Source of the DNA: Chondrosia reniformis
Taxonomy: Eukaryota; Porifera; Demospongiae; Chondrillida; Chondrillidae
NCBI GenBank assembly: GCA_947172415.1
Contig: OX359196.1
Location: 2,606,501-2,670,500, forward strand
Reading direction: 5' to 3'
DNA length: 64,000 bases
In this document: positions 35,001-57,387 of the stretch, in pieces
Numbering within the stretch: the first letter of the stretch is position 1
Layout of the letters: each line of letters opens with the position of its first letter
Program-made: the position numbers and the translations under genes
The notes under the pieces: generated by a model
What the model was told of the DNA's origin: nothing
What the model saw: only the letters and a program-made list of their open reading frames with translations
Database searches by the model: none

Positions 35001-38000
35001 TTTGTTTGAGGCTACGACGCTTCTCCAATGTTCTAGGGCTTTGAAAAGACTACATAAAGATATACCGTTACAAAAGGATAACCAGGGGTCTTCCTGACCG
35101 AATTTGCTTCCGTAGATAGTCAGAGAAAGCTTCTTATCCGAAGGAACTTAGAAAACATAGCCGTGCTTACTTTCTTCACTAAAAGAGGTAATATCTCGAA
35201 AATTAGAGCATCTTAGAAGCCAATAGAGCAACAAAATATGGCTAAAAATCGGCATCAAAGTTTTACCGTCATAAAGAGTTGCCACATTCCTATGGAGGTG
35301 ACGAATTTTAATTCCTGCCTCATGGTGTCCTCGTGACAATTAAATATCGCTTCTGGAGATTATTACGCCCACGTAATTATCTCGCGCATAAAGGGTTAAG
35401 TTATATACACTATACAGCAATAGTCATTGAAATTCCTCAAAACACATCCATTTTAAACTATTACATGTAGTTGTATATGGAATCCTGTGTACTACCAACC
35501 TGTAAAGGTCCAGTAATTACACCATGGCATCCAGGCTCCAGCTTATACTTCAATATTTCTCCCCCTTCCAAACATTTGAAGTGACAAGACTGTCCAACTC
35601 TGCTAAAAACTTTCCAATACTTTTCTAATATCTAGAAGGATGCATATAAGTTAAGTAAAACCAGAAAACATTTCTAGAAAAAGAAAACACGAACCTGGAT
35701 CCAAACATTATGTTTGTAAGTAGCAGCTATTCGTGTCGTTATACTAGTATCCTTTGACTCCCACTTCCAAGCAGAAGCAAGACACTCAAAAGGATCATTT
35801 AAACGTGAAGCTTTAGTAAAGAGGGTGCAGTGTCCTGTAATGAGGAAATCCCTGCCATTACCTGCACTTCCATAGTCCTCAAATGCAAACTCGTCATTCA
35901 CAGGAGAGTGAGGTGCCATCATCATCTTCACTCTGTCAGCGTCTGCACTCCAGTGAGGAAGGTGGAGGGTGATGGGACTCTTGATGTCTTTACTGTTGTA
36001 GTGGATATACACCACAGGGCTGGCCAGTTTATAACCATCTGGTGCCACCAGAGGTCCATCCATTATAATACCATATCTGATCTGCACCTTCCTCTTCTCA
36101 GCAACAGCTCCCTCTGGTACCTCCAGATGAGTGACATCACTCTCCACCGGTCTGTCCCCTTCTGGTTCCAAACTGAACCTTCTTCCAGTTTGGTCTACTT
36201 GAAGAGACTGTATCCCGAATGGGATCCAACACAGCTGGTCTAATTGCTCTTCATGTTCTGTGCGTTAGAGAATGTAACAGAAGCAGTATTCATACATATG
36301 AGGATGCTTGGGTCCTCCATACACACATACATACAACACTATACACACCTAATTCATGAGGGGAGGGGTCATCAGGTTCTTTTGGATCCAGTGACTCAAA
36401 AACAGAGGCTAGAGAACTCTAACAAAGCAATTGATACATAATATTTAGTAACTACTAAATGACAATGTAGTTTTAATTGACACTTTCTTACTTACCTTCT
36501 GAAGTATCTTTTGTTTCTCAGAGAAAGTTGTTACAGAGTCCATAAACTTTGATTTCATTGACTCAATCGATTTGGGAGACTTCAATTGTTCGGTACCAAA
36601 AATGGCTACAATCATTAAAATTAATTACTCTTAATTATTTAATAATGAACTTTCACAATTATGTAGTTAAACTTACTGTCATCATATTCTTCTGGTGACA
36701 ATATGCTACTAGACTGTATATGTGTGGGAAGATGAGACATTAAATAACTTATATATAGTTAATAAAGGCATGTATTCTAGCACACAAAGTAATGGCAGAA
36801 ACTGCTGCTTGATTATATTATTAGTTTTATTACTAAAGCATAATATTAGCAATTTTATTAAACCAGCTATTTAGTGACCTTAAAATTCAGCATTATTAAA
36901 CTTTCCAAACTGAGTTTTACAAATTAATTATCACTATGTACATACATTGTAAATAGTCAACTGAAATATGGGAATGTATGCTGTTTAGTGGATTAATGTT
37001 CAAATTTATGACAATTGTCTGTGTGAACTGTAAAGACTAACCTAGCTACAAACTGTTTGATAGTATTGTAGCAAAACAAAATCTGCCAAGTCAGGGCAGT
37101 AAGCATCATTGACAAAATCCTGAATGGAAACACTTGTAACAGTAGTATGTATATTCACCTTTGTCTGAAGGTGTGGAGTTGAAAGGGAGGTCATATAGCC
37201 ATGTGTCCTGAAGGTAGTTGCATGTCGAGGTTGATATATTCTACTACTTGCAGCTTGCTTAGCATGTTGAATTGCTGAAAAATCTTTATCCTTCAATATT
37301 CTCTTAAATTCCTCTTCTTTCAACTTATCTTCCCAAAACATTTTTATGATTTCTAGAGTGAAATATTATACTAGAATGTGCACAAGTAAACAGTATAAAA
37401 TTAAAAGTACACATTAAGGAAACTCCTGCAGTGTAACCACTTTGACTGTAGAAGTGTCTTGTTAACATTTCCACTACCCATACCTACCTATATATAGCCA
37501 GTATAACTACTCAATGATTGATGCACTTGCATATATACAACCCTAGTCGCTAGCTTCAACTAATACTTCAGTTGAGTTGTGAAAATTTATACTCTATCAT
37601 ACTCACTTAAACACCATTCATCATATACACTTAACTTAAAATCTAATAAGATGATCGACCATCTAATGCAGTCAGATAAACTAGATCCTAATGGTGACCT
37701 GATACAGCAGGATGCAGAATTCAGATATTATAACTTATCTATAATGTTTGCTCATCATATGTGACTGACCATGATAAAAGGTATACATACATATTTTTGC
37801 AACTTTATCAAAATTTTACTTAATAGAAGAATGCCTTTTTAATCGTATTTATGGATATAACCAAATGTATATATGTCAATTTAAGCTGCCATTGAGAAAA
37901 TGGAACAAATTTAAAACTTTAATGTTTAATTTCTTGTTTATGCAATAGCAAACAATTCATTAATGTATATGATACTTCCGATTGTGGTATTCATGGAAAT

Positions 38001-41000
38001 TCTATTGAATGATACCAAGAACACATTTCTGTTGGAAACCAAAAGTGTATACCTATTAGCATGACTAAGAAAATGTACACATTGAAATATACTTAACAGA
38101 ATATTGACTTATTCTTTGTGGATACTCTCTTGTACTAACCTTCTAACTTCTTCCCTAACTCAGAGGGTTCACCAAATATTCGATGGTATGCCCATTCTAC
38201 AGAATCTGACATAGATCCATAATAGTAAAAGTCTTTAAGTCTGTCAGTAAAGTGTCCTCTTGCTGTAGTATTTTCTGTATATTTCCCAACTTCTCCAATT
38301 ACAACTAATGGAAGGACCATGCAGGAATAGGATGTAAAGATTGCTTCAACATTAGAGGTTCAGTGGATAACACTTTCCCTAACCTTTCAATTTCTGCAAC
38401 AATACACCTTCTTCATGGATATCATAGTACTGTTTAAATTTGATATTATTAAAGGAAATAATCTCTGCAACCACCAAAGAGACTGTATGAAGAAATGAAA
38501 CCATTACCCTCACACATTCAGTAATCATACATCACTTGTATACTTACAATAAAGGTGGGATGGTAGCTTCTGTAGAATTTGTAATCTGTTCAGGTATCCT
38601 TTACTAGTCAGATCAACAAGAGCTCCAGGCAGATGTAAATCTTTACTTTGATACAATACTTTGGACAGAACTGTATCAATGTTGTACATGTAATAGAAAT
38701 GTCATATTAATTGAGCATCAAATGATAATCAATTGGAAATTAAGTGATTGTAAACACATTCATAATAACGAACTACTTTGCTGAATTGATTTTGATAGAT
38801 TTATAAATTGATTTATCAAAAGCAGAATAATTGAATACTTAGTACATTCTCATTTTGACATTACAAAGGTTATGAATAGACACGGGTAAAGTATACAATT
38901 TAGCTCAATTGTGGCAGCTTAACTGAACATGTAAGGTTGACAGTGTTACACACAGGTTACTCCAGCTAACAGACTGACTCACCTTGTAATGCTTGAAAGG
39001 CCTTCCTGTCAAAGTGCTCCTTTTCAAGAAACTGAATCACTTCTTTGATATCCTCAATTGGCTTAACCCACAGACATGACACTAACCTCCGATTCCATTC
39101 CCATTCCCATTCCCATTCCCATCTATCTGAGATTAAATATTTGCACTCATCCTCATCCAAGACCTTTGCTTTGTGTTGACAATACAGCAGAACTGATAAA
39201 GAGAGCAGTTGTGGTTAGTACCAGTGATACATTTTAAAATTGAACTTTACTGAACTCCACTCAAGCTGTATATACTGAAAGGTTTAGCATTTTAAACCAT
39301 GCAATTTTACTTTTGAGATATCATTTATTTTGTGTAATTATTACTTCATTATAATGGTCCAGAGATTATATCTGAAAATTAAAATTAAAATGTATGGCTA
39401 TTCCCAATTTCACTTGTGTCAATACATGTTTATGCAGAACAGTTTTTGAAAGTTACATTATCAATATATACTTATACAGACTGAGTCTTAGTGGCTATTT
39501 AGTATCTGAAACACATGAAGTCTACTTTAACTCTAGTACATAATACGTAAAATAAAGAATACATATTACGCATATTAATTACCTAAGTTTACTTATAGTG
39601 TTATTTCATTTCATAGAAAACATTCTTAAAATATTATGCAAGCTGTTGAGGCATGCACCTTGTATCCTACTATCGACACTCTCTAGATTAGCTGAAGATA
39701 ATATGCTTGCTATACCATTCTGCCACCTCATAGCTAGATTTGTCCATAATTGGGTGCTTTCTCAATACATGCATAAAAGAATTTGATGCTTCACTACATT
39801 CTTAAATTCTTACATTAGAAACGTTTAATCTTCTACAAGACCTTGCACATTTGGGGTCCCATGCCATATTCAACAAATCACATTATTGTAATAAAATCCA
39901 CAAACATTTATAAACTTGGAACTATTTCACAACAGTAAGATCACAACACAGGATCAAATGTCAGGTTTCAGAAGACATGAAACCTATTTGAAACTTCTTG
40001 AACAGCCAGGTTTCAAAGGGTGCTCAAGCGTGTGCTAATAGATTAATTTCACATCTTGCAAATTTTAACAGCCCCCTTTCATTCAGTTTTATACTTATTT
40101 TAATACCTTTTGAAACCTGGCTGTTCAAAGAGTTTCAAATACGTAGGTTTCATGCCTTCTGAAACCTGACATTTGATCCTGTGCAATTACATAAGAATAT
40201 GTAAACTCAGAGTAACTTACTCTTCAAACACAGCAAGTAATCACTGCCAAACCTCTCCTTCTCAAGGAACTGGACTATTTCTTGGATATTATTAATTGGT
40301 TTGAGAGTCAAATGAGATACAAGCTTCCCTTTCCAATCTCCTCTAGCTAAAGCTATATCTTTACACTCTTCTTCACTCAGGACTTTGTCTTCATGATGAA
40401 AATGATGCAAAACTGTTGAAAGAGCAAACATTTTACTGACACAGATGAAAAGAAGACAGAGTCAATGTAACCTTGAATAACTCATTAACAGGTGCACATA
40501 CTTTATACTCAAACTGAAGTGACTTTACAAAATAACATGAAACACACTGACACATACATTAGTGGAGAGACATTATTTTAACTATAGTGCTATCACATTT
40601 CATTAGAAAACATCCTTTAATATTACGCAAGTCGTTGAGGCATGCACCTTGTATCCTACTATCGACACTATCTAGATTAGCTGAAGATAATATGCTTGCT
40701 ATACCATTCTTCCACCTCATAGCTAGATTTGTCCATAATCGGGTGCTTTCTCAATACATGTATAAAAGAATTTGATGTTTTACTATATTCTCAAATTACA
40801 TTAGAAACGTTTAATCTTCTACAAGAGCTTGCACATTTGGGAACCCATGCCATATTCAACAAATCACATTAATGTAATAAAATCCATAACATTCTACACA
40901 CATCTAAACTTGGAACTGTTTCACAACAGTAAGAACACAATTACATAAGAATATGTATACTCAGAGTAACTTACTCTTCAAACACTGTAAGTAATCACTG

Positions 41001-44000
41001 TAAAACCTCTCCTTCTCAAGGAATTGGACTGTTTCTTGGATATTTTCAATTGCTTTGACAGACAAATGAAATACAAGCCTCTTTTTCCAATCTACTCCAG
41101 CTAAAGCTATATCTTTACACTCCTCTTCACTTAGGACTTTGGCTTCATGACGAAAATGATGCAAAACTGTTGAAAGAGTAAACATTTTATTGACACAGAT
41201 GAAAAGAAGACAGAGTCAATGCAACCTTGAATAACTCATTAACAGGTGCACATACCTTTATACTCAAACTGAAGTGACTTTACAAAATAACATGAAACAC
41301 ACTGACATATACATTAGTGGAGAGACATTAGTTTAACTATACTGCTATCTCATAGTGTTATCTCACTTCATAGAAAACATCCTTTAATATTATGCAAGCC
41401 GTTGAGGCATGCACCTTGTATCCTACTATCGACACTATCTAGATTAGCTCAGATAAAATGCTTGCTCTACCATTCTCCCACCTCATAACTAGATTTGTAC
41501 ATAATCGGGTGCTTTCTCAATACATGTATAAAAGAATCTGATGTTTCACTACATTCTTAAATTCTTACATTAGAAACGTTTAATCTTCTGCAAGAGCTTG
41601 CACATTTGGGGTTCCATGCCATATTCAACAAATCACATTAATGTAATATGTAAATTCCATAACATTCTACAAACATTTAAACTTGGAACTGTTTCACAAC
41701 AGTAAGTTCACAATTACATAAGAATATGTATACTCAGAGTAACTTACTCTTCAAACACTGCAGGTAATCACTGCCAAACCTCTCTTTCTCAAGGAACTGG
41801 ACTGTTTCTTGGATATTTTCAATTGGCTTGACAGACAGATGAGATACAAGCTTCCTTTCCCAATCTCCTCTAGCTAAAGCTATATCTTTACACTCCTCTT
41901 CACTTAGGACTTTGTCTTCATGACGAAAATGATGCAAAACTGTTGAAAGAGCAAACATTTTACTGACACAGATGAAAAGAAGAGAGTCAATGTAACCTTG
42001 AATAACTCATTAACAGGTGCACATACCTTTATACTCAAACTGAAGTGACTTTACAAAATATATAACATGAAACACACTGACACATACATTAGTGGAGAGA
42101 CATTAGTTTAACTATAGTGTTATCTCATTTCATTAGAAAACATCATTCAATATTACGCAAGTCATTGAGGCATGCACCTTGTATCCTACTATCAACACTA
42201 TCTACATTAGCTGAAGAGAATATGCTTGCTATACCATTCTTCCATCTCATAACTAGATTTGTACATAATTGGGTGCTTTCTCAATACATGCATGTATAAA
42301 GGAATTTGAAGTTTCACCACATTCTTAAAGTCTTACATTAGAAACACTTAATATTCTAGAAGAACTTATACATTTGGGGTTCCATGCCATATTCAACAAA
42401 TCACATTAATGTCATAAAATCCAAAACATTCTAAAAATATTAAACCTTGGAACTGTTTCACAACAGTAAGAACACAATTACATAAGAATTATGTATACTC
42501 AGAGTAACTTACTCTTCAAATACGGCAAGAAATAACTGTCAAACCTTTCCTTCTCAAGGAACTGGACTGTTTCTTGCATATTTTTAATTGGTTTGAGAGT
42601 CAAATGAGATACAAGCTTCCTTTTCCAATCTACTCCAGCTAAAGCTATATCTTTACACTCCTCTTCATTTAGGACTTTGGCATCAGGACGAAATGATGCA
42701 AAACTGTTGAAAGAGCAAACATTTTACTGACACAGATGAAAAGAAGACAGAGTCAATGCAACCTTGAATAACTCATTAACAGGTGCACATACCTTTATAC
42801 TCAAACTGAAGTGACTTTACAAAATAACATGAAACACACTGACAAATACATTAGTGGAGAGACACTATTTTAACTAGGTTTACTTAAGTCTTAATTATGA
42901 TCTCATTTCATTAGAAAACATTCTTAAAATATTATGCATACCGTTGAAGCATGCACCTTGTATCCTACTATAGACACTATCTAGATTAACTGAAGATAAT
43001 ATGCTTGCTTTACCATTCTGCCACCTCATAGCTAGATTTGTCCATAATCGGGTGCTTTCTCAATACATGTATAAAAGAACTTAATGTTTTACTATATTCT
43101 TAAATTACATTAGAAACGTTTAATCTTCTACAAGACCTTGCACATTTGGGGACCCATACCATATTCAACAAATCACATTAATGTAATAAAATCCATAACA
43201 TTCTACACACATCTAAACTTGGAACTGTTTCACAACAGTAAGATCACAATTACATATAAGAATATATATACTCAGAGTAACTTACTCTTCAAATACGGTA
43301 AGAAATAACTATCAAACCTCTCCTCCTCAAGGAACTGGACTGTTTCGTGGATATTTTCAATTGCTTTGAGAGACAAATGAAATACAAGCTTCCTTTCCCA
43401 ATCTACTCCAGCTAAAGCTATATCTTTACACTCCTCTTCATTTAGGACTTTGGCTTCATGACGAAAATGATGCAAAACTGTTGAAAGAGCAAACATTTTA
43501 CTGACACAGATGAAAAGAAGACAGAGTAAATGCAACCTTGAATAACTCATTAACAGGTGCACATACCTTTACACTCAAACTGAAGTGACTTTACAAAATA
43601 ACATGAAACACACTGACACATACATTAGTGGAGAGACATTATTTTAACTATGTTTACTTATAGTCTTAATTATGATCTCATTTCATTAGAAAACATTCTT
43701 AAAATATTATGCAAGCCGTTGAAGCATGTACCTTGTATCCTACTATCGACACTATCTAGATTAGCTGAAGATAATATGCTTGCTATACCATTCTGCCACC
43801 TCATAACTAGATTTGTACATAATTGGGTGCTTTCTCAATACATGTATAAAAGAACTTGAAGTTTCACCACATTCTTAAAGTCTTACATTAGAAACAATTA
43901 ATATTCTAGAAGAACTTGTACATTTGGGGTTCCATGCCATATTCAACAAATAACATTAATGTAACAAAATCCATAACATTCTACACACATCTAAACTTGG

Positions 44001-47000
44001 AACTGTTTCATAACAGTAAGATCACAATTACATAAGAATAAGTATACTCAGAGTAACTTACTCTTCAAATACGGCAAGAAATAACTATCAAACCTCTTCT
44101 TCTCAAGGAACTGGACTGTTTCGTGGATATTTTCAATTGCTTTGAGAGACAAATAAAATACAAGCTTCCTTTCCCAAACTCCTTCAGCTAAAGCTATATC
44201 TTTACACTCCTCTTCACTTAGGACTTTGTCTTCATGACGAAAATGATGCAAAACTGTTGAAAGAGCAAACATTTTACTGACACAGATGAAAAGAAGAGAG
44301 TCAATGTAACCTTGAATAACTCATTAACAGGTGCACATATCTTTTATACTCAAACTGAAGTGACTTTACAAAATATATAACATGAAACACACTGACACAT
44401 ACATTAGTGGAGAGACATTAGTTTAACTATAGTGTTATCTCATTTCATTAGAAAACATCATTCAATATTACGCAAGTCGTTGAGGCATGCACCTTGTATC
44501 CTACTATCGACACTATCTAGATTAGCTGAAGATAATATGCTTGCTATACCATTCTGCCACTTCATAACTAGATTTGTACATAATTGGGGGCTTTCTCAAT
44601 ACATGCATGTATAAAGGAATTTGAAGTTTCACCATATTCTTGAAGTCTTACATTAGAAACACTTAATATTCTAGAAGAACTTATACATTTGGGGTTCCAT
44701 GCCATATTCAACAAATCACATTAATGTAATAAAATCCATAACATTCTAAAAACATTAAACCTTGCACAGGTGCCATATGACTGATCTGCGTGTTTTTACA
44801 TTTTTTTATAAACACTTTTTAAAGCAAGTTTCGTTCTAACAGAAACGATTTGCTAACTTAAACTGGTATACATCGAAGTGCTTATTTAAATGTCAGCGAA
44901 ATGAAAAATTTGAGCGAGATTGAACAACCAATATCGAAGATATAACGAGTTAAAAAGGGCCGATTTTAAATCTCTCAGACACTATGCACTTAGTCTAGGA
45001 AAAAGCTAGAACTATGTTCTATACTTTATTGGAAAGGTTACAATGTATTCTAACAAAATTAAGAAGTCCGTTTCGATTCGCACATCCGTTGAGAAGAAAA
45101 CTGTGAAAATACACTTTTAATAGATTAGTAAATCCTATTTAATCTTTCATATCTTGGAAAATAAAGCTCAGACGCAAACGGACTTCTTAATTCTTACTAA
45201 ATGACACTCACTGAACCCATTGAAGCTGACTACACGACTATGAGGATCTTCTAACTTAAGCGCATAGGCAATTTTCCTTCACTTCTGCAACAGACGCCAT
45301 TTCTTAACATTTAAATCATATTCATTAGCAAATAAGTTTATTCATGGGATGATTTACACATTTGAAACGCAAACGGTGAAATTTTATAGCCGGATGTTAA
45401 TATTGCGCAAATCCTAAGTTGTGTAACTGGTATACATGTATGTATGTATGTTGACGCAAGTGATCGAGGATCGCCGTAAGGTGTTATTCACACTAAGGAT
45501 CGCCAATTTCCGAATTTTCGTCTACAACAGAGAAGATTATACCCCCCAAAAAAGGCAAGAGGGATATCAGTCAATAATCAGATTGCTCTGAAGTTCAACT
45601 GCGGCTTTGCAAGAGTTGCTGCATACGAATTATTCGTTAACAAAAGGTACGTAAAAAGTAAGTATTCGACGATAGCCAGAGAAGTGAATCATTTTATAGC
45701 TTTACATTAATTGTATAATACAATACGTACGAAGTGAGACGATTAAATAAAACATTAATAGGATACGAAGTGAGACGATTATAAGACAATGATACGAAGC
45801 GAGATGATTATATACGATATGTAAATCAATTAAGCCAAAGGATGCTATTTAACAATGGACGATTTTAAATTCCTTCCGGTGTGTAACCGATAACACTAAA
45901 TGACGCATTCACTCTTAACGATTGAAAACGAAAATTCTTTATTAATTAGCGCTTGTTACGTGTTGATCGCTATAAGGCAGCCTATCCCTAAGGAACAGTC
46001 ATAAGGTACCAGTGTGGAACTGTTTCACAACAGTAAGAACACAATTATTTAAGAATATGTATACTCAGAGTAACTTACTCTTCAAATACGGCAAGAAATA
46101 ACTGTCAAACCTTTCCTTCTCAAGGAACTGGACTGTTTCTTGGATATTTTTAATTGGTTTGAGAGTCAAATGAGATACAAGCTTCCTTTTCCAATCTACT
46201 CCAGCTAAAGCTATATCTTTACACTCCTCTTCATTTAGGACTTTGGCTTCATGACGAAAATGATGCAAAACTGTTGAAAGAGCAAACATTTTACCGACAC
46301 AGATGAAAAGAAGACAGAGTCAATGCAACCTTGAATAACTCATTAACAGGTGCACATACCTTTATACTCAAACTGAAGTGACTTTACAAAATAACATGAA
46401 ACACACTGACACATACATTAGTGGAGAGACACTATTTTAACTAGGTTTACTTAAGTCTTAATTATGATCTCATTTCATTAGAAAACATTCTTAAAATATT
46501 ATGCATACCATTGAAGCATGCACCTTGTATCCTACTATAGACACTATCTAGATTAGCTGAAGATAATATGCTTGCTTTACCATTCTGCCACCCCATAGCT
46601 AGATTTGTCCATAATCGGGTGCTTTCTCAATACATGTATAAAAGAACTTGATGTTTTACTATATTCTTAAATTACATTAGAAACATTTAATCTTCTACAA
46701 GACCTTGCACATTTGGGGACCCATGCCATATTCAACAAATCACATTAATGTAATAAAATCCATAACATTCTACACACATCTAAACTTGGAACTGTTTCAC
46801 AACAGTAAGATCACAATTACATATAAGAATATATATACTCAGAGTAACTTACTCTTCAAATACGGTAAGAAATAACTATCAAACCTCTCCTCCTCAAGGA
46901 ACTGGACTGTTTCTTGGATATTTTCAATTGCTTTGAGAGACAAATGAAATACAAGCTTCCTTTCCCAATCTACTCCAGCTAAAGCTATATCTTTACACTC

Positions 47001-50000
47001 CTCTTCATTTAGGACTTTGGCTTCATGACGAAAATGATGCAAAACTGTTGAAAGAGCAAACATTTTACCGACACAGATGAAAAGAAGACAGAGTCAATGC
47101 AACCTTGAATAACTCATTAACAGGTGCACATACCTTTATACTCAAACTGAAGTGACTTTACAAAATAACATGAAACACACTGACACATACATTAGTGGAG
47201 AGACATTATTTTAACTATGTTTACTTATAGTCTTAATTATGATCTCATTTCATTAGAAAACATTCTTAAAATATTATGCATACCGTTGAAGCATGCACCT
47301 TGTATCCTACTATCGATGCTATCTAGATTAGCTGAAGATAATATGCTTGCTATACCATTCTGCCACCTCATAACTAGATTTGTACATAATTGGGTGCTTT
47401 CTCAATACATGTATAAAAGAACTTGAAGTTTCACCACATTCTTAAAGTCTTACATTAGAAACACTTAATATTCTAGAAGAGCTTGTACGTACATTTGGGG
47501 ACCCATGCCATATTCAACAAATCACATTAATGTAATAAAATCCATAACATTCTACACACATCTAAACTTGGAACTGTTTCACAACAGTAAGATCACAATT
47601 ACATAAGAATATGTATACTTAGAATAACTTACTCTTCAAACACTGCAAGAAATAACTGTCAAACCTCTTCTTCTCAAGGAACTGGACTGTTTCTTGGAAA
47701 TTTTCAATTGGCTTGACAGACAGATGAGATACAAGCTTCCTTTCCCAATCTAATGCAGCTAAAGCTATATCTTTACACTCCTCTTCACTTAGGACTTTGT
47801 CTTCATGATGAAAATGATGCAAAACTGTTGAAAGAGCAAACATTTTACTGACACAGATGAAAAGAAGACAGAATCAATGCAACCTTGAATAACTCATAAA
47901 CAGGTGCACATACCTTTATACTCAAACTGAAGTGACTTTACAAAATAACATGAAACACACTGACACATACATTAGTGGAGAGACATTATTTTAACTAAGT
48001 TTACTTATAGTGTTATCTCACTTCATTAGAAAATATCCTTGAAATATTATACAAAAACAACTAATCAAACGTAGTGCTCCAAAGAGACAAGACACATAAT
48101 CCTGGACAAGTAGACAGTCGATGTCTTTGATTTTAGATAATGTAACAATGAAAGTTACATCAGAGTCTTTAGTTTTCTCTCCAGAGTCTGTCTTTATTTC
48201 ACAAGTAATTAGGTATTCCAGAATATGTAGTGACTTCTCCAGTTTTCAGGCTAAAAGTTTGCAGTTATGCAGTAGGCTTATTAAGCAGGGTTACAAATAC
48301 TTTAAACTAAAATCAACCTTTAAAACCTTCCTATCCCGGCAGCCTCTAGTTAGAATCAAGTATAAGAAAAAAGTAGCTAGTATGCTTAAGGACTGTCTTG
48401 TGTTACCCCACATTGTGTTACCCCACCTCCTAAGCTCTCTTCAGGTTTAGTTCCCCTATAGGCTCTTTTACAGAATAGGCATAGCATGTAGGAAAATAGT
48501 ATCTTAAATTTTCATGTAAGAAATTTTGTCATAAGGTACAAAAGGGCTATCTACTATTATTCTTCTTCTTATGCAATAGCCTTAATTTGATATATATAAT
48601 ACAGTAATGATGAACATCCAATGATGCCCAATGACATTACGTACATCCGTTTACAGAATAGAGAGGACTATATTATCAACTTGCAAGTTTTGCAGACTTT
48701 CACTTCTTTAATGATTCATTTTACAAAATATACACTTGACTTGACACTAAAATAAGTTGCTAAAAGAACAACATTTAGAGAAATTTTAATAAGCAGTGTA
48801 ATATTTATACACAGTAGGAAGTCAATTATCTGAACACATCGGGTCCGAAGGGTGTTCGGATAATCGATTGTTTGAATAATTGAAGTTCTGACTCCAACAG
48901 CATTGAAAATACATGTTTGCAAACATAAATAATAAAATTGAACACAAAATAACTTTATTAGGTACATATGAGGGTTACAACTTGGCAAAGTAATCATCAA
49001 TTTTTAAGCATTTGTCGTTTATTCTATCGTTATTTGTTCTTCTAATTAACCAATCTTCATAGTTATCGGTTAGCTTTGTCGTTTTCCCTTACGTTGTTTG
49101 GGTTGACGTTTGACACTTATCGTTTACGGATAAATTCCTGACGTTTCCAATTTTTGTTTCCTGATTAAACCAATATACTCGTGTCGTTATTGGTTTACCT
49201 TTTTCGTTTCACTGTTACCTTTTTTGGCGCGTACTGTAAGTGGGCGTGGAGTCCGGAAATGGCATTCGGTTAATCGACGTATTCGGTTAAGTGATGTCCG
49301 GATAATCAACGTTCTACTGTATAGTAAAATGTATAGAAAGTACAAAGTGTCAAGTGTGTTTAGCTTTTATAGTTTGCCTCCACAATTACAATCTATAGTA
49401 TATATGTACATTAATTACACAATTCACACCTCTTTTAAAGCTTAAAAGAGTATTTATTGTGACAGTCATATATTTGTATATAAAGTCAATGTAGAGTACA
49501 ATTATCTACTACTCAAACTAAACAGGCCACTTCTGCTTCTATTAAAATTAAACTGGACATTACAGACCCCTATAATGACTGATTAGTGGAATACTCAGAT
49601 ACGTACTAAGATACTTTAGATATGTTCATACATATATACGTATCTACATGGATTATCATAATGGTTTGCATAGTGACTATCCTATGCAAAACGGCAACAA
49701 ACACGTATGGGAAAAGTGATATAATACTTTTTGTATAATGTATATATGTATGCAAAGTGGTATCATGCTTTATTTTGTATATGCGTGCATTACACATGAT
49801 GATTTCAATCCAAGTAAAATAGCATAAAATATCTCAGGTTTTACTCATTAAAGCAAGATATAGAGCCAATCACATTTAGTATAACTACCAAAAAACACAT
49901 GTACACTTGCAGGAACCTTGTATCCTACTATCTGACACTATCTAGATTAGCTTACTCTTCAATGGCTCCAAGCAATCACTGTCAAACTCTGCTTCCTCAA

Positions 50001-53000
50001 GGAATTTGACCACTTCTTGGGTGTATCCAAGTGACTTGGCAGATAGATGGGACACAAGTTTCCATTCCCAATCCCGACCAGCTGATCCTATATCTTTACA
50101 CTCATCTTCATTTAGAATCTTTTCTTTATGATGACAGTGCTGCAAAACTGTAAAACAATGGAAAATCCATATAGACTGTAGATTATACATACATTAACAT
50201 TTAACTGTAAATTGGCAGAATATTATCTCATCTTCAGAGTGTGGAATGGTTTCCTGCTTTCTAGCTTAGATTCTGGTTCCATAGTCAGTAGGTTCAATCT
50301 AAGTACCACAATGTTACATTTCCTAGCACTTCAGCAGTTGCCTTGTAATGCGGATAATAATATTATTGCATTATGAGCCACATATTCTATTAAAGACATG
50401 GATTCTCTCAACTGTACACTAGTTCTCATTTCAGATGAAAAAGATTAAAAAGTGTTTCAGTTGAGTGAATGATGATGCATGTTTCAAGAGCTTGCATAGT
50501 GATTATCCCAAAACAGCAACAAACACAGAATATTGGGAAAAGTGGTATCATGCTTTATTTTGTAGGCGTGCATTACACTTGATGATTTCAATCCAAGTAA
50601 AATAGCATAAAATATCTCAGGTTTTACTCATTAAAGCAAGATATAGAGCCAATCACATTTAGTATAACTACAAAAACACATGTACACTTGCAGGAACCTT
50701 GTATCCTACTATCTGACACTATCTAGATTAGCTTACTCTTCAATGGCTCCAAGCAATCACTGTCAAACTCTGCTTCCTCAAGGAATTTGACCACTTCTTG
50801 GGTGTATCCAAGTGACTTGGCAGATAGATGGGACACAAGTTTCCATTCCCAATCATCACCAGCTGATCCTATATCTTTACACTCATCTTCATTTAGAATC
50901 TTTTCTTCATGATGACGTGCTGCAAAACTGTAAAACAATGGAAAATCCATATAGACTGTAGATTATACATACATTGACATTTAACTGTAAATTGGCAGAA
51001 TATTATCTCATCTTCAGAGTGTTGAATGGTTTCCTGCTTTCTAGCTTAGATTCTGGTTCAATAGTCAGTAGGTTCAATCTAAGTACCACAAATGTTACAT
51101 CCTAGCACTTCAGCAGTTGCCTAGTAATGCGGATAATAATATTATTGCATTAAGAGTTACTTATTTCTATTAAAGACATGGATTCTCTCAACTGTACACT
51201 AGTTCTCATTTCAGATGAAACAGATTAAAAAGTGTTTCAGTTGAGTGAATGATGATGCATGTTTCAAGAGCTTGCATAGTGATTATCCCAAAAGGGCAAC
51301 AAACACAGATTATTGGGAAAAGTGGTATCATGCTTTATTTTGTAGGCATGCATTACACTTGATGATTTCAATCCAAGTAAAATAGCATAAAATATCTCAG
51401 GTTTTACTCATTAAAGCAAGATATAGAGCCAATCACATTTAGCATAACTGCATACAAATACACATGTACACTTGCAGGAACCTTGTATCCTACTATCTGA
51501 CACTATCTAGATTAGCTTACTCTTCAATGGCCGCAAGTAATAACTGTCAAAGTATGCTTCCTCAAGGAATTTGACCACTTCTTGGGTGTATCCAAGTGAC
51601 TTGGAAGATAGATGGGACACAAGTTTCCATTCCCAATCCCGACCAGCTGATCCTATATCTCTACACTCATCTTCACTTAGAATCTTTTCTTTATGATGAA
51701 AGTGCTGCAAAACTGTAAAACAATGAGAAATCCATACTAACTGTAAATTATCCTAAATACATTGACATTTAACTGTAAATTGGCAGAATATTATCTCATC
51801 TTCAGAGTGTGGAACGGTTTCCTTCTTTATAGCTTAGATTCTGGTACCATAGTCAGTATAGGTTCAATCTAAGTACCACAATGTTACATTTCCTAGCACT
51901 TCAGCAGTTGCCTTGTAATGCAGATAATAATGTTATTGCATTAAGAGGCACTTACAGTAGAACGTCGATTATCCGAAAGTCAATTATATGAATCGTTGAT
52001 TATCCTAACGTTGTCGCAAGATGCTGACTCAGCAAAAAATGGCCGCCAACCAACGGAAGAGAACTACTAAGTGTAGACCAGAAGCTTGAGATCTGCAAAC
52101 GATTGTAGAAAGGGGCTACTATTACTTCACTTTCGAAGGAATTGAATATTGGTAAGTCGACGATTTGTGATATAAGGCGAAATGAAGAAAAATGCGTCAC
52201 TTTTGTTGAGAAACTGCTTGCTGTTTGATTATATGTACTTTTTGATTTTACGAACAGGCCAATCCCCAATTAATTCGGATAATCAACTTTCTACCGTATT
52301 TCTATTAAAGACATGGATTCTCTCAACTGTACACTAGTTCTCATTTGAGAAGAAACATATAAACTATACTTAGCATCACCCAGGTGACATATAAAGCCTT
52401 AATTGGCCCCATTGAGGGCCTATAAGTGTATTTGCATTACATCCTACTTAATGCCTTCACGTGTAGATAATATATACATATATGCATGGGTCACCTGGCG
52501 ATGTGTCAGGTTGGTGATTGGAGCATGGTACAGGACCAGGTGGGGGCTGCCGGCATGTAATTAATAATTATATCTTTTTGTGGAAGTGAGTTAATAAATC
52601 TAGGTATGTTGAGTTACAATTAGGCTGAGTAGTTTTTTAATATATAGTGCTTTTTTGGATAGGCCTATATATAATTGTCACTTCCAATTAATGGCTTGGG
52701 TGGAATATATCATAACAGCTAGGGCTTTCACATATGTATAGGCTGTTATGGCCCAAGGAGTTTCTCCACCCAAGACATATCTGTATACCCATATACGTGT
52801 CTAATTGAATTCAGACTAACATGCCCCTTAATATACGTATATATATATAGGTACCCACGTGTCTATAAATGGAAATATAATAACCATATAGAGGTGTATG
52901 CTTATCCATATGCCAATAAACGGAAAACTAAGTATAGTCTTAAGTTGATAAATGGCTATATATACATTGTTATTTGGCAGCTGCCATAGCTTGTGAGACT

Positions 53001-56000
53001 GTTGCTAACGACTCTCTGGGAATTCGAATGTAAATTTGGTATGCGGGCGGAGCTTTTCCATCTGCCCAGTGTTTGGATAAGTGCAGCGTCCATCCCAGCC
53101 TGTGCCGCTGTGGTAGCTGTTCCTATGCGGAAGCCGTGACCCGAATATGGGGTGGGGTCTATGTCGGCTGCCTGTAGGAGAGACTTGACTTCCTTCACAA
53201 ATGTCTCTCTTGTAAGGAAGGAGCCATCGATGAATTGGAATAAGGGGCCTGCGAGCGCACCTCTCAGAGCGAGGTATGGGAGTAACGCTGTAAGGGGACA
53301 CAGGGGTTGGTTAGTCTTTCCAAGTGTAATGGTGACCCTTTGCCTGAAGGGGCTTGTCTTGGAGGCCTTAATTGTGATAAAGGCTTTTGTTGGATTGTCA
53401 TGGGAGTCAAGGGCTATGTCATTGAGGCAAAGGTGCCAGGTGGGGTCATGAGATGTGGGGGATGGTGAGCATACTTCGCCCGATCTTAGAAAACCGAAGA
53501 AGCAAACGTTCATGGCTGCCCAGATCATCAAAGTATCCGGGGAAGTAGGTGGAGCCCTCACAATGCCCCAAACGTGGCGTAGGATAGCCAGGGTAATAGG
53601 GAGGCGCACTTTCTGTGGGAGGATTGAGGTGGCCTTCCTTATACCTTTTAGCATAAGTTCAAGACCAGGGCGAATTCCATCCGGGAATGGAGTGTTAGGA
53701 CCATTGGTAATGTGGAGGTGCCGAACTGCAGCTAGGTACGTTTTGATAGTCTGCCACTTAAGGCCTTTCAATGCGAGATACGCCGAGAACAGCAGTAATT
53801 GTTGTTCTGATGCCGGGAGAGGGTGGAGGCCTGTCAGCTGGCAGAAGGTCAGGTACTGCTTTTGGCCGGAGCGGTATGTTTGGGCTGTGGATTTTGCGAC
53901 ACCTTCTCTAATGTAGTAGTTAACTGCTGTCTCCAGTTGGCTGAGAGCCAGTCTGGCGGTGGTTTCACCAAGAACAATTGGAGAAGAGTCTGAGGTATGA
54001 CTGCAGGGTCTCTGGGGGCCTCTGGAACCTGTGCAAAAAAGGCAGAGAGACGGTTACGGGATAATGCATCTGCTGGACCATTATCTTTGCCAGCAATATG
54101 GGTAGCTGATATACAGAATCGGTACTCCATGGCAAATAGGTGTAGCCCTCTGAGTAGGTGCATAACTAGAGGCTCTGTGCTTTTGCCTGATGAGATGGCC
54201 TGGACTATTGCTATATTGTCACATCTAAAGTGTATCGACAGACGATGCCATTGAGGGCCCCATGTAGCAGCGGCCAGTACAATAGGCAATAGCTCCTTCG
54301 CGGTGATGTTCTTTGGCACCCAGGTACTGGGCCAACTGCCGTGGAACCACTGATATGGGGAAGGTGACCAAGCTCCATAGCCCCATGAGCCCGATGCGTC
54401 TGAATATATCCAGACATCTGGGGATGCTGTTACCACTGGAAGTAGAAAACTGCTACCATTCCACCTTGGAAGGAATGTCCTCCACCACTGTAGGTCTGAT
54501 CGGAACTCTTTATTCAGTCGCACAAAGTGGTGGTCCTCCTTAGCAAGTTTTGACAGTTCGATTATCCTACGTACGAATATTCTACCAAAGCGGACAACCA
54601 TGGCTGGGTGATGGAGGACCCCTAGCAGGGAGAGAAGCTCCCTTTTCCTGCAGGCTTTCTTATCCTGCCAGGCATTCAAGGTGGTTTCGAGCCGCTGAAG
54701 TTTTTCTTGGGGGAGGCGTGCTGTCATGGTCTGGCTGTCCAGTTCAATGCCCAGGAACACTAGACACCTATCTGGACCTTCTACCTTTTCGGGTGCCAGG
54801 GGGACTCCCAGATCGGTGAGGACGGTTGTAGCAAGGTGGAGGGCTCGTGCTGGGGTATGTGGCTTTTCCACAAATAAGTAATGATCCAGGTAGTGGATGC
54901 AGCACTCTACGCCTCTTTCCCTTATGAGCCACTGGATCGCATCAGCCAGTGCTGTAAAAATCTTGGGTGCTGAGCGTAGGCCGAATGGTAGCCGGGTATC
55001 TAGGAAGTATTGGCCCTGCCAGTGCATGCCTAATGACCCCCAGTCCTCTGGGTGTACCGGAATGATGCGATAGGCATCTTTGATGTCGAGTTTCGAGAGT
55101 TGGGCATCCTTGCCTGCTTGTAGGATCTGTGTCACCGCCATGTCTATGGACGGGTATCGCAGGGAGCTCAGTTCCTTGGAGACACCGGTATTAACACTGC
55201 TGTCCTCTGGAAATGACAGGTCCAGGATTAGGCGCCACTTTCCTGGTTGGGATCGCTTAGGAATAACCCCAAACCTACTAACCTGCATCGGCCTCAGTGG
55301 AGGAGCTGGGAAGGGGCCTAGAATCCGCCTTTTTGACATTCCGCTAGAAGATATGCTCCCACCACCTCCGGGTGTTCATAGGCAGATGGTATGTTGCGTC
55401 TTGCGGGTTTGAGCTGCTGCCAGGAGCTCTGCAGCCCAAGTGAAAGCCATATTGAAGCCCTTCTAAGAGCCAGTGGACCAGTTGTTTGTCTGGGTAGTGC
55501 TGTAGTGCATCCCGCCATAAGGGGACAGCTAGGGGGGACGGTGCTGGTTGTGGGGGCTTGGCCATTTGCCAGTAGGGTGGAGAACGAGGAGGAGAGACTG
55601 ATAGTGCTTGGAGATCTCTTGTGTAGGCATAGTGCGGGGGACCTGCAGGGCCATGAAATGTATATGTGACAGCTACCTTGATTGCTTCTTTTTATTTATT
55701 TTATATTTTATTTTATTTTAGATATGATATAGATGTTAGAATTTGTAACGTTGCTCGCGTGCTAGACAGCCTACTCCTGACTATGCCTACATTTTTTTGT
55801 ACCGTCGTGGTCGCTGATGGGCCCATCTGCGGCGTGCTCTGATAGGCTACCTGCTTGCATGTCGATGTCCTAACGTACGTATAAATGCATGTATGTCTGG
55901 GTGAACTATGTTACTGAACATACAAAGTATCATAACTAGTAATTAAAATGGCATGCAAGCATCACCCTGACTAGACTGAGTTTGTTAAGATGTTCCTAAA

Positions 56001-57387
56001 TTGTCCTGCTCTCCGGAGCACAAAATTGGGCGGGGCGCTTCGCTGGATGAGGAAGCAAGGCTGGTGGGCCTCTCTGCCTGAATTGCATGCGCCGGCACTC
56101 TGTGTAGCGATGGCCTGGGGAGAAGCACGTGGCACACACGTGGAGAAACCTGCCCGTATCCGGGAACCTGCAGGCCCCGCTATTCCATGAGAGGCAGACA
56201 GGGGATTGTGCCCTGTTAGGGGTGTAGGGGTTGCGTGCTGGCCCCGGTGAGGATATCAATACAGAATCCCTCTGAGGAGGTTCGTCGACCCCCCAAGGAC
56301 AGGAGGCAGAACTGTGGCTGGAGCTGCAGCAGAATTGGCAAATTGCTGAGCGGCGGGTCTGGGAGGAAACAAACCTGGCATAGAGACTGGGATCCACCCC
56401 TTTCCAATCAGTGGACTTGCAGGAGGCAGCCTGGATCCCGAAGGCCCTGTCGTGGACCCGCCAGCCGTCTCCTTGAAATTGGAGATGGGCCTGAAGGATT
56501 GTGTTAGTGTATGCTGTCATTTGAGGCAGCATGCTGGTAGTCAAAGCGCCCGCTATACACAGCGTCAATACCATTTTAGCGTTATATTGCAATAGGTGCC
56601 GCCCCCACCTGGATGCTAACTCAGTTTATGTAAACATAAACTCTATTAAGAAGTGCTTCAGTTCAGTGAATGATGATGTTTCAACGGCTTACATAGTGAT
56701 TATCCCAAAAGGGCAAAAAACACAGAAAGGTCATATCATGCTTTATTTTGTACGCGTACATTACACATGACAATTTCAATCCAAGTCAAATAGCATACAA
56801 TATCTCAGGTTTTACTCTGTCATTAAAGAAAGATATAGAGCCAATCACATTTACTATAAAAACAAATACATTTGTAAACTTACAGGAACGTTGTATCCTA
56901 CCATCTGACACTATCTAGATTAGCTTACTCTTCAATGGCCGCAAGTAATCACTGTCAAAACTTGCTTCCTCAAGGAATTTGACCACTTCTTGGGTGTATC
57001 CAAGTGACTTGGCAGATAGATGGGACACAAGTTTCTCTTCCCAATACAGACCAGCTGATCCTATATCTTTACACTCATCTTCACTTAGAATCTTTTCTCT
57101 GCAATGAAAGTGCTCCAAAACTGTAAAACCATAAAAAGTATTTTGGACTCCACTCCTTTTTTAACTTACACCTGGCCTAACAACAGTAATTACCCAAGAA
57201 CAGCTTTAGTGTATCTAAAGCTGTTCTTGGGTAATGACTGATGGATTGAAGGTTGGGAATTTCAAATCAAAAATGTTCTTTAACAGACTGAAATGAACCA
57301 AGACCATATTCACTTACAGTGTTTGCACTGAGTACTACACCTCCAGTCCTTCTCTGCCACACAAGGACAACGAATGTCAGATGCCAT
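31681..57387 (-). CDS. Gene B: multi-CARD-like / ZU5 / UPA-like protein with alternative terminal exons
   Basis: Paralogue of gene A, read from high to low: exon 1 57387-57318 (MASDIRCPCVAEKDWRC); 14 CARD-like exons between 57120 and 38983; then 38670-38548, an exon ending at 38140 (5' side unclear), 37352-37159, 36713-36677, 36605-36496, 36418-36349, 36257-35695 (ZU5), 35631-35500 and 34269-34069 (UPA-like), linker exons 34003-33947, 32819-32756 and 32437-32381, and two candidate terminal exons, 33442-33135 and 32003-31681. Length is dominated by the CARD-like array. A one-base deletion in 34269-34069 shifts the frame before the terminal exons, so the deposited allele cannot encode them without correction. 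Gene B lacks the gene A exon 10152-9985. Function is inferred: an intracellular death-fold signalling protein. Confidence 0.6.
32274..32312 (+). ncRNA. Hammerhead-like motif in gene B 3' region
   Basis: CACTGATCGAAGA precedes a GACC-TTCGG-GGTC hairpin and then GAAACGTC. This is hammerhead-like with one inserted base in the CTGATGA box. A shortened copy (GGGTCGAAACGTCTGA) begins the second half of the local duplication near 32678. Such sequences occur in Penelope-like and other retroelements. Activity is doubtful. Confidence 0.3.
32283..33064. repeat. Tandem duplication of about 390 bp carrying a linker exon
   Basis: The segment from GGGTCGAAACGTCTGA (32296) to TTTTTGTTTATA (32672) recurs from about 32677 to 33064 in the same order. 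Each half contains one linker exon copy (32437-32381 and 32819-32756). The second linker has about 7 extra bases and is out of frame. Confidence 0.75.
33135..33442 (-). CDS. Gene B terminal exon 1, death-fold-like
   Basis: Acceptor TTACACAG, then (V)KSPQEIINFLDQHNDG and a helical domain ending FATLIGIFLQSC and a stop. Paralogous to 32003-31681 and in the same phase as the gene A death-domain exon. It is preceded by its own linker exon at 34003-33947, so it forms a self-contained linker-plus-terminus module. Confidence 0.55.
34069..34269 (-). pseudogene. Gene B UPA-like exon 2 with one-base deletion
   Basis: It matches gene A exon 4611-4410 but is 201 bp instead of 202. A T-run near 34133-34137 (CACATTTCAT versus CACATTTTCAT) has lost one base. 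The frame changes after DPPYE and a stop would arise in the next linker exon. Splice sites are unchanged. An assembly or allele error is possible. Confidence 0.7.
34775..35395. mobile_element. piggyBac-type MITE, TTAA duplication
   Basis: TTAA flanks both sides (34771-34774, 35396-35399). The termini CCCTTTATGCGCGAG match perfectly as inverted repeats, and the CCCTTT start with TTAA is the piggyBac signature. No transposase. Gene A carries the empty site near 5150 (CCCCTTTTAGGTTATATACAC). It lies in the intron between the two UPA-like exons of gene B. Confidence 0.85.
35500..36257 (-). CDS. Gene B ZU5 exon and first UPA-like exon
   Basis: Exon 36257-35695 (563 bp) encodes the ZU5 domain with LEVPEGAVAEKRKVQIRYGI, LASPVVYIHY and SPITLHLPHW. 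Exon 35631-35500 (132 bp) encodes the first UPA-like part. Both are open and collinear with gene A, with one extra codon (KRK) and mostly conservative substitutions. Confidence 0.8.
38983..39192 (-). CDS. Gene B membrane-distal family CARD-like exon with WE repeat
   Basis: A 210-bp exon encoding (V)LLYCQHKAKVLDEDECKY, then WEWEWEWEWNRR from a CATTCC hexanucleotide run, then KPIEDIKEVIQFLEKEHFDR. It is the last CARD-like exon before the ZU5 half and the only one with this repeat expansion. The gene A counterpart is half deleted. Confidence 0.6.
39947..40183. mobile_element. Long-TIR fold-back MITE, CAA duplication
   Basis: Inverted arms begin CACAGGATCAAATGTCAGG and extend with small gaps over roughly 70 bp each (TTTCAGAAG, CATGAAACCTA, AACAGCCAGGTTTCAAA). 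CAA flanks both ends. Removing the insert and one CAA restores the ATCACAATTACATAAG sequence seen in sister repeat units. Confidence 0.85.
40221..47824 (-). CDS. Gene B tandem array of nine IALA-type CARD-like exons
   Basis: Exons (minus, high-low): 47824-47633, 47044-46853, 46270-46079, 44253-44062, 43477-43286, 42703-42513, 41939-41748, 41166-40975, 40412-40221. Spacing is about 755-780 bp except where a 1.25-kb insertion intervenes. All are 192 bp and phase 1-1 except 42703-42513, which is 191 bp with a frameshift near its start. Each encodes VLHHF.HE.KVL.EEECKDI, a variable A(L)ARGDW/AGVDW/AEGVW segment, and an FLE..RF helix. Introns are also highly similar, so duplication is recent. The array could form a poly-CARD protein or be a set of mutually exclusive exons; sequence alone does not decide. 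Confidence 0.6.
44765..46014. mobile_element. 1.25-kb non-autonomous TIR element
   Basis: Ends CACAGGTGCCATATGACTG and, inverted, CACTGGTACCTTATGACTG agree at 16 of 19 positions. A TG doublet is duplicated at the flanks. The CCTTGGAACTG sequence of sister units is split here. No ORF was found. A short tandem repeat (ATACGAAGTGAGACGATT type, three units) lies at about 45728-45815. Confidence 0.7.
48121..48450 (+). mobile_element. Possible retroelement protein remnant in a gene B intron
   Basis: An open stretch of 109 codons includes LIKQGYKYFKLKSTFKTFLS followed by a basic segment, vaguely like the palm-to-thumb side of LINE RTs. No catalytic motif, so the call is weak. The rest of 47825-48811 shows only intron sequence and a partial dispersed repeat near 48430-48520. 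Confidence 0.2.
48812..49319. mobile_element. pogo/Tigger-type MITE
   Basis: Left end CAGTAGGAAGTCAATTATC and inverted right end CAGTAGAACGTTGATTATCC share the CAGTAGAAC..GATTATCCG terminus typical of pogo/Tigger elements. The right flank is TA. About 508 bp without a transposase. Confidence 0.75.
49956..51712 (-). CDS. Gene B second array: three IGSAG-type CARD-like exons
   Basis: Exons 51712-51521 (192 bp), 50927-50737 (191 bp) and 50147-49956 (192 bp), period about 782. They encode VLQHF/CHHKEKIL.EDECKDIG, SAGRDWEWKLVSHLS and a helix ending KFLEEA.FDS. The middle one has lost a base in GATGACAGTGC and is frameshifted at its 5' end. Their TTTTACAG acceptor and GTAAGCTA donor differ from the IALA family, so this is a separately amplified subfamily. 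Confidence 0.6.
51955..52296. mobile_element. pogo/Tigger-type MITE with visible empty sites
   Basis: CAGTAGAACGTCGATTATCC at the left and the inverted CGGTAGAAAGTTGATTATCC at the right, flanked by TA on each side. Sister repeats at 12356 and 51148 read CTTATTTCTATTAAAG without the insert. Confidence 0.85.
52956..53771 (-). pseudogene. DIRS-like tyrosine recombinase, frameshifted before the catalytic Tyr
   Basis: An open frame with FFGFLRSGEV (catalytic Arg), ITIKASKTSPFRQRV and SGHGFRIGTA (H-x-x-R). After GRWKSS the frame changes by one base (an extra C near 53041-53046), so the expected Tyr motif (AYQIYIR) lies in another frame. Related to the Ngaro recombinase at 17908-18919. Confidence 0.75.
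53849..55565 (-). pseudogene. DIRS-like RT-RNase H, two frameshifts and YLDH active site
   Basis: The N-terminal part (55565 to about 55440) encodes KQLVHWLLEGLQYGFHLG. The frame shifts near 55440 and again near 55340. The main frame (55339-53849, 496 codons) then carries SRFGVIPKR, KLDIKDAYRIIPV, PFGLRSAPKIF and HYLDHYLFV, where YLDD is expected. RNase H motifs SDASGSWGYGAW, KELLPIVLAA, CDNIAIVQAI and GKDNGPADALSR follow. Loss of the second Asp makes this RT inactive. Confidence 0.8.
55996..56592 (-). CDS. DIRS-like ORF1 (Gag-like) fragment
   Basis: About 198 codons with VCLSWNSGACRFPDTGRFLH followed by VCATCFSPGHRYTEC, a C-x2-C-x4-H-x4-C knuckle preceded by another Cys/His group. This is equivalent to the ORF1 end of the Ngaro element (CISWNAGRFC...). 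The true start is probably upstream and spliced or lost. 55570-55995 is non-coding. Confidence 0.6.
   Translation of the reverse strand: MQYNAKMVLTLCIAGALTTSMLPQMTAYTNTILQAHLQFQGDGWRVHDRAFGIQAASCKSTDWKGVDPSLYARFVSSQTRRSAICQFCCSSSHSSASCPWGVDEPPQRDSVLISSPGPARNPYTPNRAQSPVCLSWNSGACRFPDTGRFLHVCATCFSPGHRYTECRRMQFRQRGPPALLPHPAKRPAQFCAPESRTI
56929..57120 (-). CDS. Gene B first CARD-like exon (IGSAG type)
   Basis: 192 bp, phase 1-1, with (V)LEHFHCREKILSEDECKD and GYTQEVVKFLEEASFDSDYL. It is the first repeat after exon 1 and is cut off from its sisters by the DIRS-like insertion. Confidence 0.6.
57189..57235. repeat. Perfect 21-bp hairpin with 5-nt loop
   Basis: Left arm ATTACCCAAGAACAGCTTTA(G), loop TGTAT, and the exact reverse complement. 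Units 1 and 2 carry only one arm at this intron position (near 190-220 and 12640-12672), so the palindrome arose in unit 3. Confidence 0.85.

Follow-up and report, generated by a model that had tools for sequence, protein, structure and literature searches.

Tandem arrays of a near-uniform, probably CARD-derived exon in a ZU5 gene family of the sponge Chondrosia reniformis

We analysed a 64,000-nucleotide (nt) stretch of the genome of the demosponge Chondrosia reniformis, hereafter the window, which corresponds to positions 2606501–2670500 of chromosome 8 (8,125,224 bp) in assembly odChoReni1.1 (117,379,552 bp in 15 contigs, namely 14 chromosomes and the mitochondrion). The main gene of the window lies on the minus strand and contains fourteen tandem exons between 38983 and 57120. 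An earlier note, made from the letters alone, had described these as CARD-like exons, thirteen of them on a 192-nt template, and as regards the layout this description was borne out. All fourteen exons could be located, four of a type we call IGSAG, nine IALA and one WE, all in phase 1-1 and bordered by AG and GT. Eleven of the thirteen IGSAG and IALA exons are exactly 192 nt long and open, and the other two are 191 nt long and frameshifted. The thirteen also share an acceptor ending in ACAG and a GTAAG donor, and each array exon encodes a module of 64 residues. In the direction of transcription, the first exon and the array read as follows:

57318..57387, minus strand: exon 1, beginning with ATG, 23 codons plus 1 nt, donor GTAAGT, phase 1
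56929..57120, minus strand: IGSAG module exon 1, 192 nt, open
51521..51712, minus strand: IGSAG module exon 2, 192 nt, open
50737..50927, minus strand: IGSAG module exon 3, 191 nt, frameshifted
49956..50147, minus strand: IGSAG module exon 4, 192 nt, open
47633..47824, minus strand: IALA module exon 1, 192 nt, open
46853..47044, minus strand: IALA module exon 2, 192 nt, open
46079..46270, minus strand: IALA module exon 3, 192 nt, open
44062..44253, minus strand: IALA module exon 4, 192 nt, open
43286..43477, minus strand: IALA module exon 5, 192 nt, open
42513..42703, minus strand: IALA module exon 6, 191 nt, frameshifted
41748..41939, minus strand: IALA module exon 7, 192 nt, open
40975..41166, minus strand: IALA module exon 8, 192 nt, open
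40221..40412, minus strand: IALA module exon 9, 192 nt, open
38983..39192, minus strand: WE module exon, 210 nt; our grouping places no more than one in a gene

A genome search with one module returned at least 126 homologous places, all of them on chromosomes 8 and 11 (the latter 7,633,987 bp). Given this number of places and the near-uniform exon lengths, the array is not a product of chance. When the module matches are grouped with the positions of WE, of a further phase 1-1 exon, SLYEE, and of the downstream exons DD1 and ZU5, they form about 19 genes on these two chromosomes, and the exons follow a common order: IGSAG (0–10), IALA (0–9), SLYEE (0–1) and WE (0–1), with ZU5 and an exon of CARD-like or death-like type after them. 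Outside the stretches that were read, module type was assigned by identity to the query alone. Seven copies, A to G, were compared exon by exon, gene C being the window gene. Exon 1 can be aligned in all seven, with length shifts of 3 or 9 nt only and an unchanged donor, and the downstream exons stand in the same order across copies, indicating that the array belongs to one gene. The family plan is directly visible: a short first exon, IGSAG exons, IALA exons, WE, linker exons, ZU5 and, further downstream, an exon that resembles a CARD or a death domain. WE is itself a relative of the template exons with an in-frame expansion of a 6-nt repeat, and measures 192, 198 or 210 nt in six other aligned copies (gene D, in which its 5' part is disrupted, being set aside). 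SLYEE was seen at about 9985–10151 of the window (minus strand) and at 10 places in the family, with no copy found in the main gene of the window.

For the statistics we extracted 68 exons: 7 WE exons, which were excluded from the module statistics, and 61 others (43 IALA and 18 IGSAG), 42 of which come from two contiguous stretches and 19 from small loci that were the best matches out of the at least 126. Gene E also has a truncated first IGSAG exon, which is not among the 68. The 61 exons are again close to the template in length, with 46 of 192 nt, 13 of 195 nt and 2 of 191 nt.

Downstream of the array, the exons of the seven copies agree in length modulo 3 and in their AG/GT borders, apart from the lesions given in this list and further below:

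38548..38670, minus strand: DD1, 123 nt, phase 1-1, length and AG/GT borders equal in all seven copies
38384..38482, minus strand: SLVV, 99 nt, phase 1-1, length and AG/GT borders equal in all seven copies
38140..38274, minus strand: FTDRL, 135 nt; elsewhere 135 or 144 nt, in gene B 143 nt (frameshift), in gene E with an acceptor that is not AG
37159..37352, minus strand: FWEDK, 194 nt; carries an in-frame stop in gene A, and no copy was found in gene E
35695..36257, minus strand: ZU5 exon, 563 nt
35500..35631, minus strand: UPA-region exon 1 (UPA1)
34069..34269, minus strand: UPA-region exon 2 (UPA2), 1 nt shorter than in five other aligned copies, a frameshift
33136..33442, minus strand: CARDc1 exon, with a stop codon at its end
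31682..32003, minus strand: CARDc2 exon, with its own stop codon at its end

This gene model is incomplete: one or more exons are missing between FWEDK and the exon that precedes ZU5. The ZU5 domain was recognised by Pfam at 23.3 bits against a cut-off of 21 (over the whole open reading frame, 35674–36264), and the FIIND model reached 13.3 bits, under its cut-off of 25.8. The two exons after ZU5 presumably form a UPA region, a label that follows the layout of ZU5-UPA proteins and that no profile match accompanies. With a stop codon in each of them, CARDc1 and CARDc2 can serve only as last exons; the death-like exon of gene D is likewise stop-terminated, and in gene A a further death-like exon lies after FWEDK and before ZU5. 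Pfam gave no match for the CARDc or the death-like exons. By profile comparison, two CARDc1 and three CARDc2 sequences together (profile A2) matched a CARD profile from the same sponge with a probability of 85% (P 6e-6), and four death-like sequences matched the Death profile with a probability of 85%. A CARD was thus found by profile downstream of ZU5-UPA, and the window gene loses its frame before CARDc. No NACHT or NB-ARC domain was seen among the exons scanned of this incomplete gene model. Genome-wide, 26 of 46 ZU5 matches are near full length (identity 82–100%) and lie on chromosomes 8, 11, 2, 7 and 10; at three of the chromosome 2 places, Pfam CARD and Death matches lie no more than about 3.5 kb further downstream, and of these three CARD matches one is under the cut-off. 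By eye, similar small linker exons stand upstream of CARDc1 and of CARDc2, and matches to CARDc1 are very numerous across the genome (the best 150 of 310 candidates were scored).

Whether the modules themselves are CARD-like, as the earlier note had it, depends on the kind of search. Sequence searches gave nothing in favour: Pfam CARD (PF00619), Death and DED matched 0 of 60 modules at E up to 10, none of 90 genomic Pfam CARD matches falls inside the array clusters, and the arrays are not among the matches listed in genome-wide Pfam Death and DED searches (for Death, the best 150 of 220 candidates scored). A PDB profile search with the modules had no CARD among the matches listed, hhalign found no match between the modules and the gene's own C-terminal exons, and no relative was confirmed in collections of prokaryote genomes and viruses. 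Profiles built from the same genome (12 CARD, 11 Death and 6 DED stretches from genome-wide Pfam matches) did give a match. The 51 IALA and IGSAG modules scored 25.3 against CARD (probability 57%, P 1.1e-4), compared with 9.5 against Death and 12.0 against DED, and none of 500 column shuffles reached 25.3 (best 19.8). IALA alone (22.5) and IGSAG alone (21.4) matched identical CARD columns; WE (11.5) and SLYEE (16.6) alone do not match CARD. The match begins at column 25 and ends at column 73 or 74 of the 81, leaving helix 1 outside. On this profile evidence the IALA and IGSAG modules appear related to helices 2–5 of a CARD, and they are probably CARD-derived and without helix 1.

We consider it unlikely that the module is instead an unrelated small helical repeat that matches CARD by chance. 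The lack of Pfam and PDB matches, the absent helix 1 and the failure of WE and SLYEE to match would all fit such a repeat, as would hhalign probabilities of just 30–57% and the result for all 60 modules, whose score of 22.2 was not equalled in 300 shuffles but was nearly so (best 21.5). It is harder to reconcile with a CARD score that stands above Death and DED and beyond both sets of shuffles, with the use of the same columns by both subfamilies, or with the CARD-like exons further downstream in the same gene.

The earlier note had also proposed that the array serves diversity. At the DNA level, 192-nt exons are 91% identical within IALA, 90% within IGSAG and 71% across types (Ka 0.26, Ks 0.99), and the module identity within the window gene is 0.85 for IGSAG (n = 3) and 0.81 for IALA (n = 8). 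Peptide statistics used 39 IALA and 16 IGSAG exons, leaving out those with stops or frameshifts and one 195-nt IGSAG exon, and the extra codon of the 195-nt IALA exons was removed beforehand. The peptides are almost all distinct (38 of 39 IALA, 16 of 16 IGSAG, 54 of 55 in all), and their variable positions, 15 in IALA and 12 in IGSAG, coincide at 9 (p 3e-5), forming in both types patches at about residues 24–29 and 54–62. All four gametes occur, depending on the distance bin, in 29–49% of IALA site pairs and 40–70% of IGSAG site pairs, which fits exchange between modules, with a contribution from recurrent mutation. The clearest example is a pair of IGSAG exons from gene E: 10 of their differences fall within the 26 nt of the second patch, at the 3' end, and 2 in the remaining 166 nt, and their flanks differ by 1 change in 250 nt upstream and 8 in 500 nt downstream. 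From these patterns, the modules look like mosaics of each other.

Exons are also more diverse than the introns around them. Nucleotide diversity in exon and intron was 0.080 vs 0.067 in seven IALA units of gene C, 0.084 vs 0.046 in four IALA units of gene E and 0.079 vs 0.045 in six IGSAG units; indel columns numbered 1–3 in exons vs 12–45 in introns of these three pooled sets. In gene C the stretch preceding the acceptor is very similar between copies. Among nine independent closest pairs, 178 of 5106 intron sites differ (3.5%), compared with 6.8% of replacement and 10.7% of synonymous sites. Since synonymous sites are raised as well, the pattern suggests short-tract exchange, or homogenisation of introns with different exons retained, and not simple positive selection.

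The evidence for selection on amino acids is mixed. At positions chosen from the other type, replacement changes are in excess in IALA (P 0.028), and at the other positions they fall below neutral (P 4e-7 and 6e-4), both types being constrained. pN/pS is 1.3 in residues 22–37. Pooled over the exons read, Ka/Ks is 0.56 for IALA and 0.57 for IGSAG, and 0.84 for the eight window IALA exons; a value of 3.2 for IGSAG came from just three exons and was not used. Several results weigh against the diversification reading. The replacement excess at positions chosen from the other type is absent in IGSAG (P 0.55), pN/pS is just 0.66 and 0.50 in residues 54–64, and whole-patch peptide haplotypes gave no full four-gamete square. 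The exon excess in gene C is small, with several intron bins as variable as the exon, and synonymous changes too lie above the intron level, so that the excess is not due to positive selection alone. What stands of the diversity proposal is the set of variable positions common to both types and the mosaic-like exons, with a replacement excess in IALA only.

A comparable situation is found in fungi. In PMC4986451, the highly conserved (HIC) repeat domains that fungal NLRs of the Podospora nwd/HET family carry (WD, ANK or TPR) are described as about 85% identical in amino acids, variable in number, exchanged within and between genes, and hypervariable at a few positions per repeat. The sponge modules, which are 81–85% identical, resemble these in each of the four respects, namely the close similarity of tandem repeats, the changing repeat number, the exchange and the small set of hypervariable positions. 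Hypervariable positions and exchange between repeats were both found, the replacement excess again in IALA only; against the HIC identity threshold of at least 85% over 100 residues, the window gene shows 0.85 in IGSAG and 0.81 in IALA, from few modules. HIC repeats, however, are WD, ANK or TPR units on NLR-type proteins, whereas in the sponge each array exon gives a single, probably CARD-derived module and the protein is of ZU5 type. The four-way resemblance leads us to favour a tandem tract that serves as a variable contact surface.

We therefore interpret the window gene, with a confidence that is about evenly balanced, as a member, probably decaying, of a tandem family that may carry, on a ZU5-CARD signalling protein, a recognition tract of diversified tandem modules. 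By sequence, the modules have multiplied through tandem duplication with the frame kept; most modules of an intact gene would be spliced in tandem into a repeat tract. The variable patches of this tract might contact changing partners, be they microbial ligands, self/non-self partners or partner CARDs, and binding could be relayed via ZU5 to the CARD or death domain at the C-terminus; this domain would in turn recruit an adaptor of the DEATH fold, or a caspase, further down the pathway. The sources of variety would be the number of modules, their sequence and possibly their choice at splicing. ZU5/FIIND-CARD proteins include CARD8 and NLRP1, and ZU5-death proteins include PIDD and UNC5; the sponge gene too has a ZU5 followed by a CARD or death domain. 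None of these types is known to have an N-terminal array of CARD-like exons. The SF/S cleavage motif named for CARD8 and NLRP1 in PMC3210808 is not apparent, by eye, in the sponge ZU5 exon.

The state of the copies speaks against this reading. If exon 1, all thirteen modules and the downstream exons are joined, a stop follows residue 162, in the third module; if the two 191-nt exons are omitted, the frame stays open through eleven modules, WE, DD1, SLVV, FTDRL and FWEDK. The quality value of odChoReni1.1, given as 69.8 in the assembly report (PMC12181767), makes read error an unlikely cause of single-base frameshifts. All five chromosome 8 copies have a downstream-exon lesion or lack some downstream exons. 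Gene A has its stop in FWEDK; gene B combines the FTDRL frameshift with a degraded CARDc2, the window gene has the 1-nt deletion in UPA2, gene D has its disrupted WE exon, and in gene E the AG before FTDRL is absent and the exons from FWEDK to CARDc were not found in the stretch examined. In gene F, 6 nt are inserted where UPA2 ends, and no other lesion was seen there; gene G, examined as far as ZU5, shows none. The window copy, by its sequence, is probably decaying.

These lesions could mean that the window array is mainly a graveyard, in which unequal crossing-over adds exons to a gene without a full protein and the diversity is conversion among relics. Two of the thirteen window modules are frameshifted, and among the 61 non-WE exons stops were seen in 3, frameshifts in 2 and loss of the donor in 1. 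The other 55, however, are free of lesions despite the many intron indels, replacement changes outside the variable positions are held below neutral as noted, and Ka/Ks is 0.46 for ZU5, 0.28 for UPA1, 0.34 for DD1 and 0.55 for WE, although 1.13 for SLVV, a value that counts against the main reading. With genes F and G also sound in the exons examined, we regard the graveyard reading as improbable. We rejected the use of broken modules as proof of skipping; an association between broken modules and broken downstream exons (Fisher p 0.083, gene A counted intact) is void, as gene A has the FWEDK stop.

The introns of the array share an element, (G)CTAATCTAGATAGTGTC(A)GATAGTAGGATACAAGG, of 34–35 nt, which adjoins the donor of IGSAG exons and usually lies about 300 nt into IALA introns. 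One example is:

50697..50732, minus strand: intron element, from intron base 5 after an IGSAG exon

Its last 17 nt have 83 genomic matches with at most one mismatch, all 83 in the chromosome 8 and 11 clusters and on the gene strand, and the reversed control had 0. On chromosome 8 it was detected in 95 of 102 intron pairs (6 IGSAG-IGSAG by 17 IALA-IALA introns), which besides the element have no similarity below E 0.27. That it was kept across introns although the Ks of the exons is near 1 points to constraint. Downstream of many array-final IALA exons the element is absent, so it may merely travel with the duplicated unit. The element holds the palindrome ATCTAGAT, and the IGSAG copies also have two AGATAGT repeats. 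A micro-exon of 24 or 33 nt at the element was set aside, as its frame is not kept in the IGSAG copies, and an open reading frame beginning ESTR in the IALA introns was rejected as an extra exon, several copies being frameshifted.

Tandem interchangeable exons with a cluster-specific intron element recall the mutually exclusive exon clusters of the insect Dscam type, for which a docking/selector model is set out in PMC6071210. In contrast to that model, no docking site for the sponge element emerged from coarse RNA duplex scans of four genes with four shuffles each, in which the element was the sole candidate selector (real minimum -25.4, shuffles down to -27.1). Splicing of exon 1 to a single IGSAG or IALA exon and on to WE, with one module variant per transcript, would be a form of the mutually exclusive reading in the earlier note, which had a poly-CARD scaffold as its other reading; such splicing would suit phase 1-1 modules that are interchangeable between exon 1 and WE, their near-equal lengths and recent tandem duplication, the confined element, two last exons with their own stops in one gene, and the two frameshifted modules, which would then be harmless and which favour skipping or decay, but we think it quite unlikely, since the element pairs with no partner better than shuffled elements do, the splice sites are consensus-like by eye and so favour inclusion, the fixed order of the two subfamilies would suit a repeat tract equally well, and a 3n exon length does not force exclusion. 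RNA reads of the sequenced specimen are public (ERR10177766, according to the assembly report, PMC12181767).

The repeat-tract reading can be extended to a wider proposal, which we put forward as doubtful. In an early-branching animal, the DEATH-fold signalling module itself, in place of an LRR or Ig domain, may have been reduced to a partial CARD the size of one exon. Germline arrays would have amplified this exon, gene conversion and selection would have varied it at two fixed patches, and splicing, governed by the common intron element of 34–35 nt, would assemble the copies or select among them, so that many variants would be available for immunity or allorecognition. If true, this would link DEATH-fold signalling to recognition diversity, as a fungal strategy of concerted evolution run on CARD-derived exons. 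The means by which sponges distinguish self from non-self, or live with dense populations of symbionts, would become directly testable, and module number could be typed across individuals with long reads. Many CARD and DEATH domain genes are described in the NLR repertoire of another demosponge, Dysidea avara, in the portion of PMC12909245 available; unlike the present family, the genes named there are NACHT-based, NACHT-ZU5 included, and its main text makes no mention of tandem, alternative splicing or Chondrosia. Searches of an open-access library gave no description of such CARD-like exon arrays among the titles and abstract openings listed.

Other features of the window surround the array genes. 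A plus-strand gene stands next to them repeatedly, at about 57840–63000 and also at about 1000–2500 and 21000–29000; it looks like a SPRY-containing DEAD-box helicase of the DDX1 type. The repeated neighbourhood of array gene and plus-strand gene suggests segmental duplication of gene pairs. Open reading frames resembling retroelements, with reverse transcriptase and tyrosine-recombinase-like sequences by eye, occur at about 52956–56625 (minus strand), within the intron that separates the first two IGSAG exons, and at about 15000–18919 (plus strand); they are presumably DIRS-like. Low-complexity open reading frames, with several frames open and a short repeating unit, lie at 63029–63726 and 26098–26699 (minus strand).

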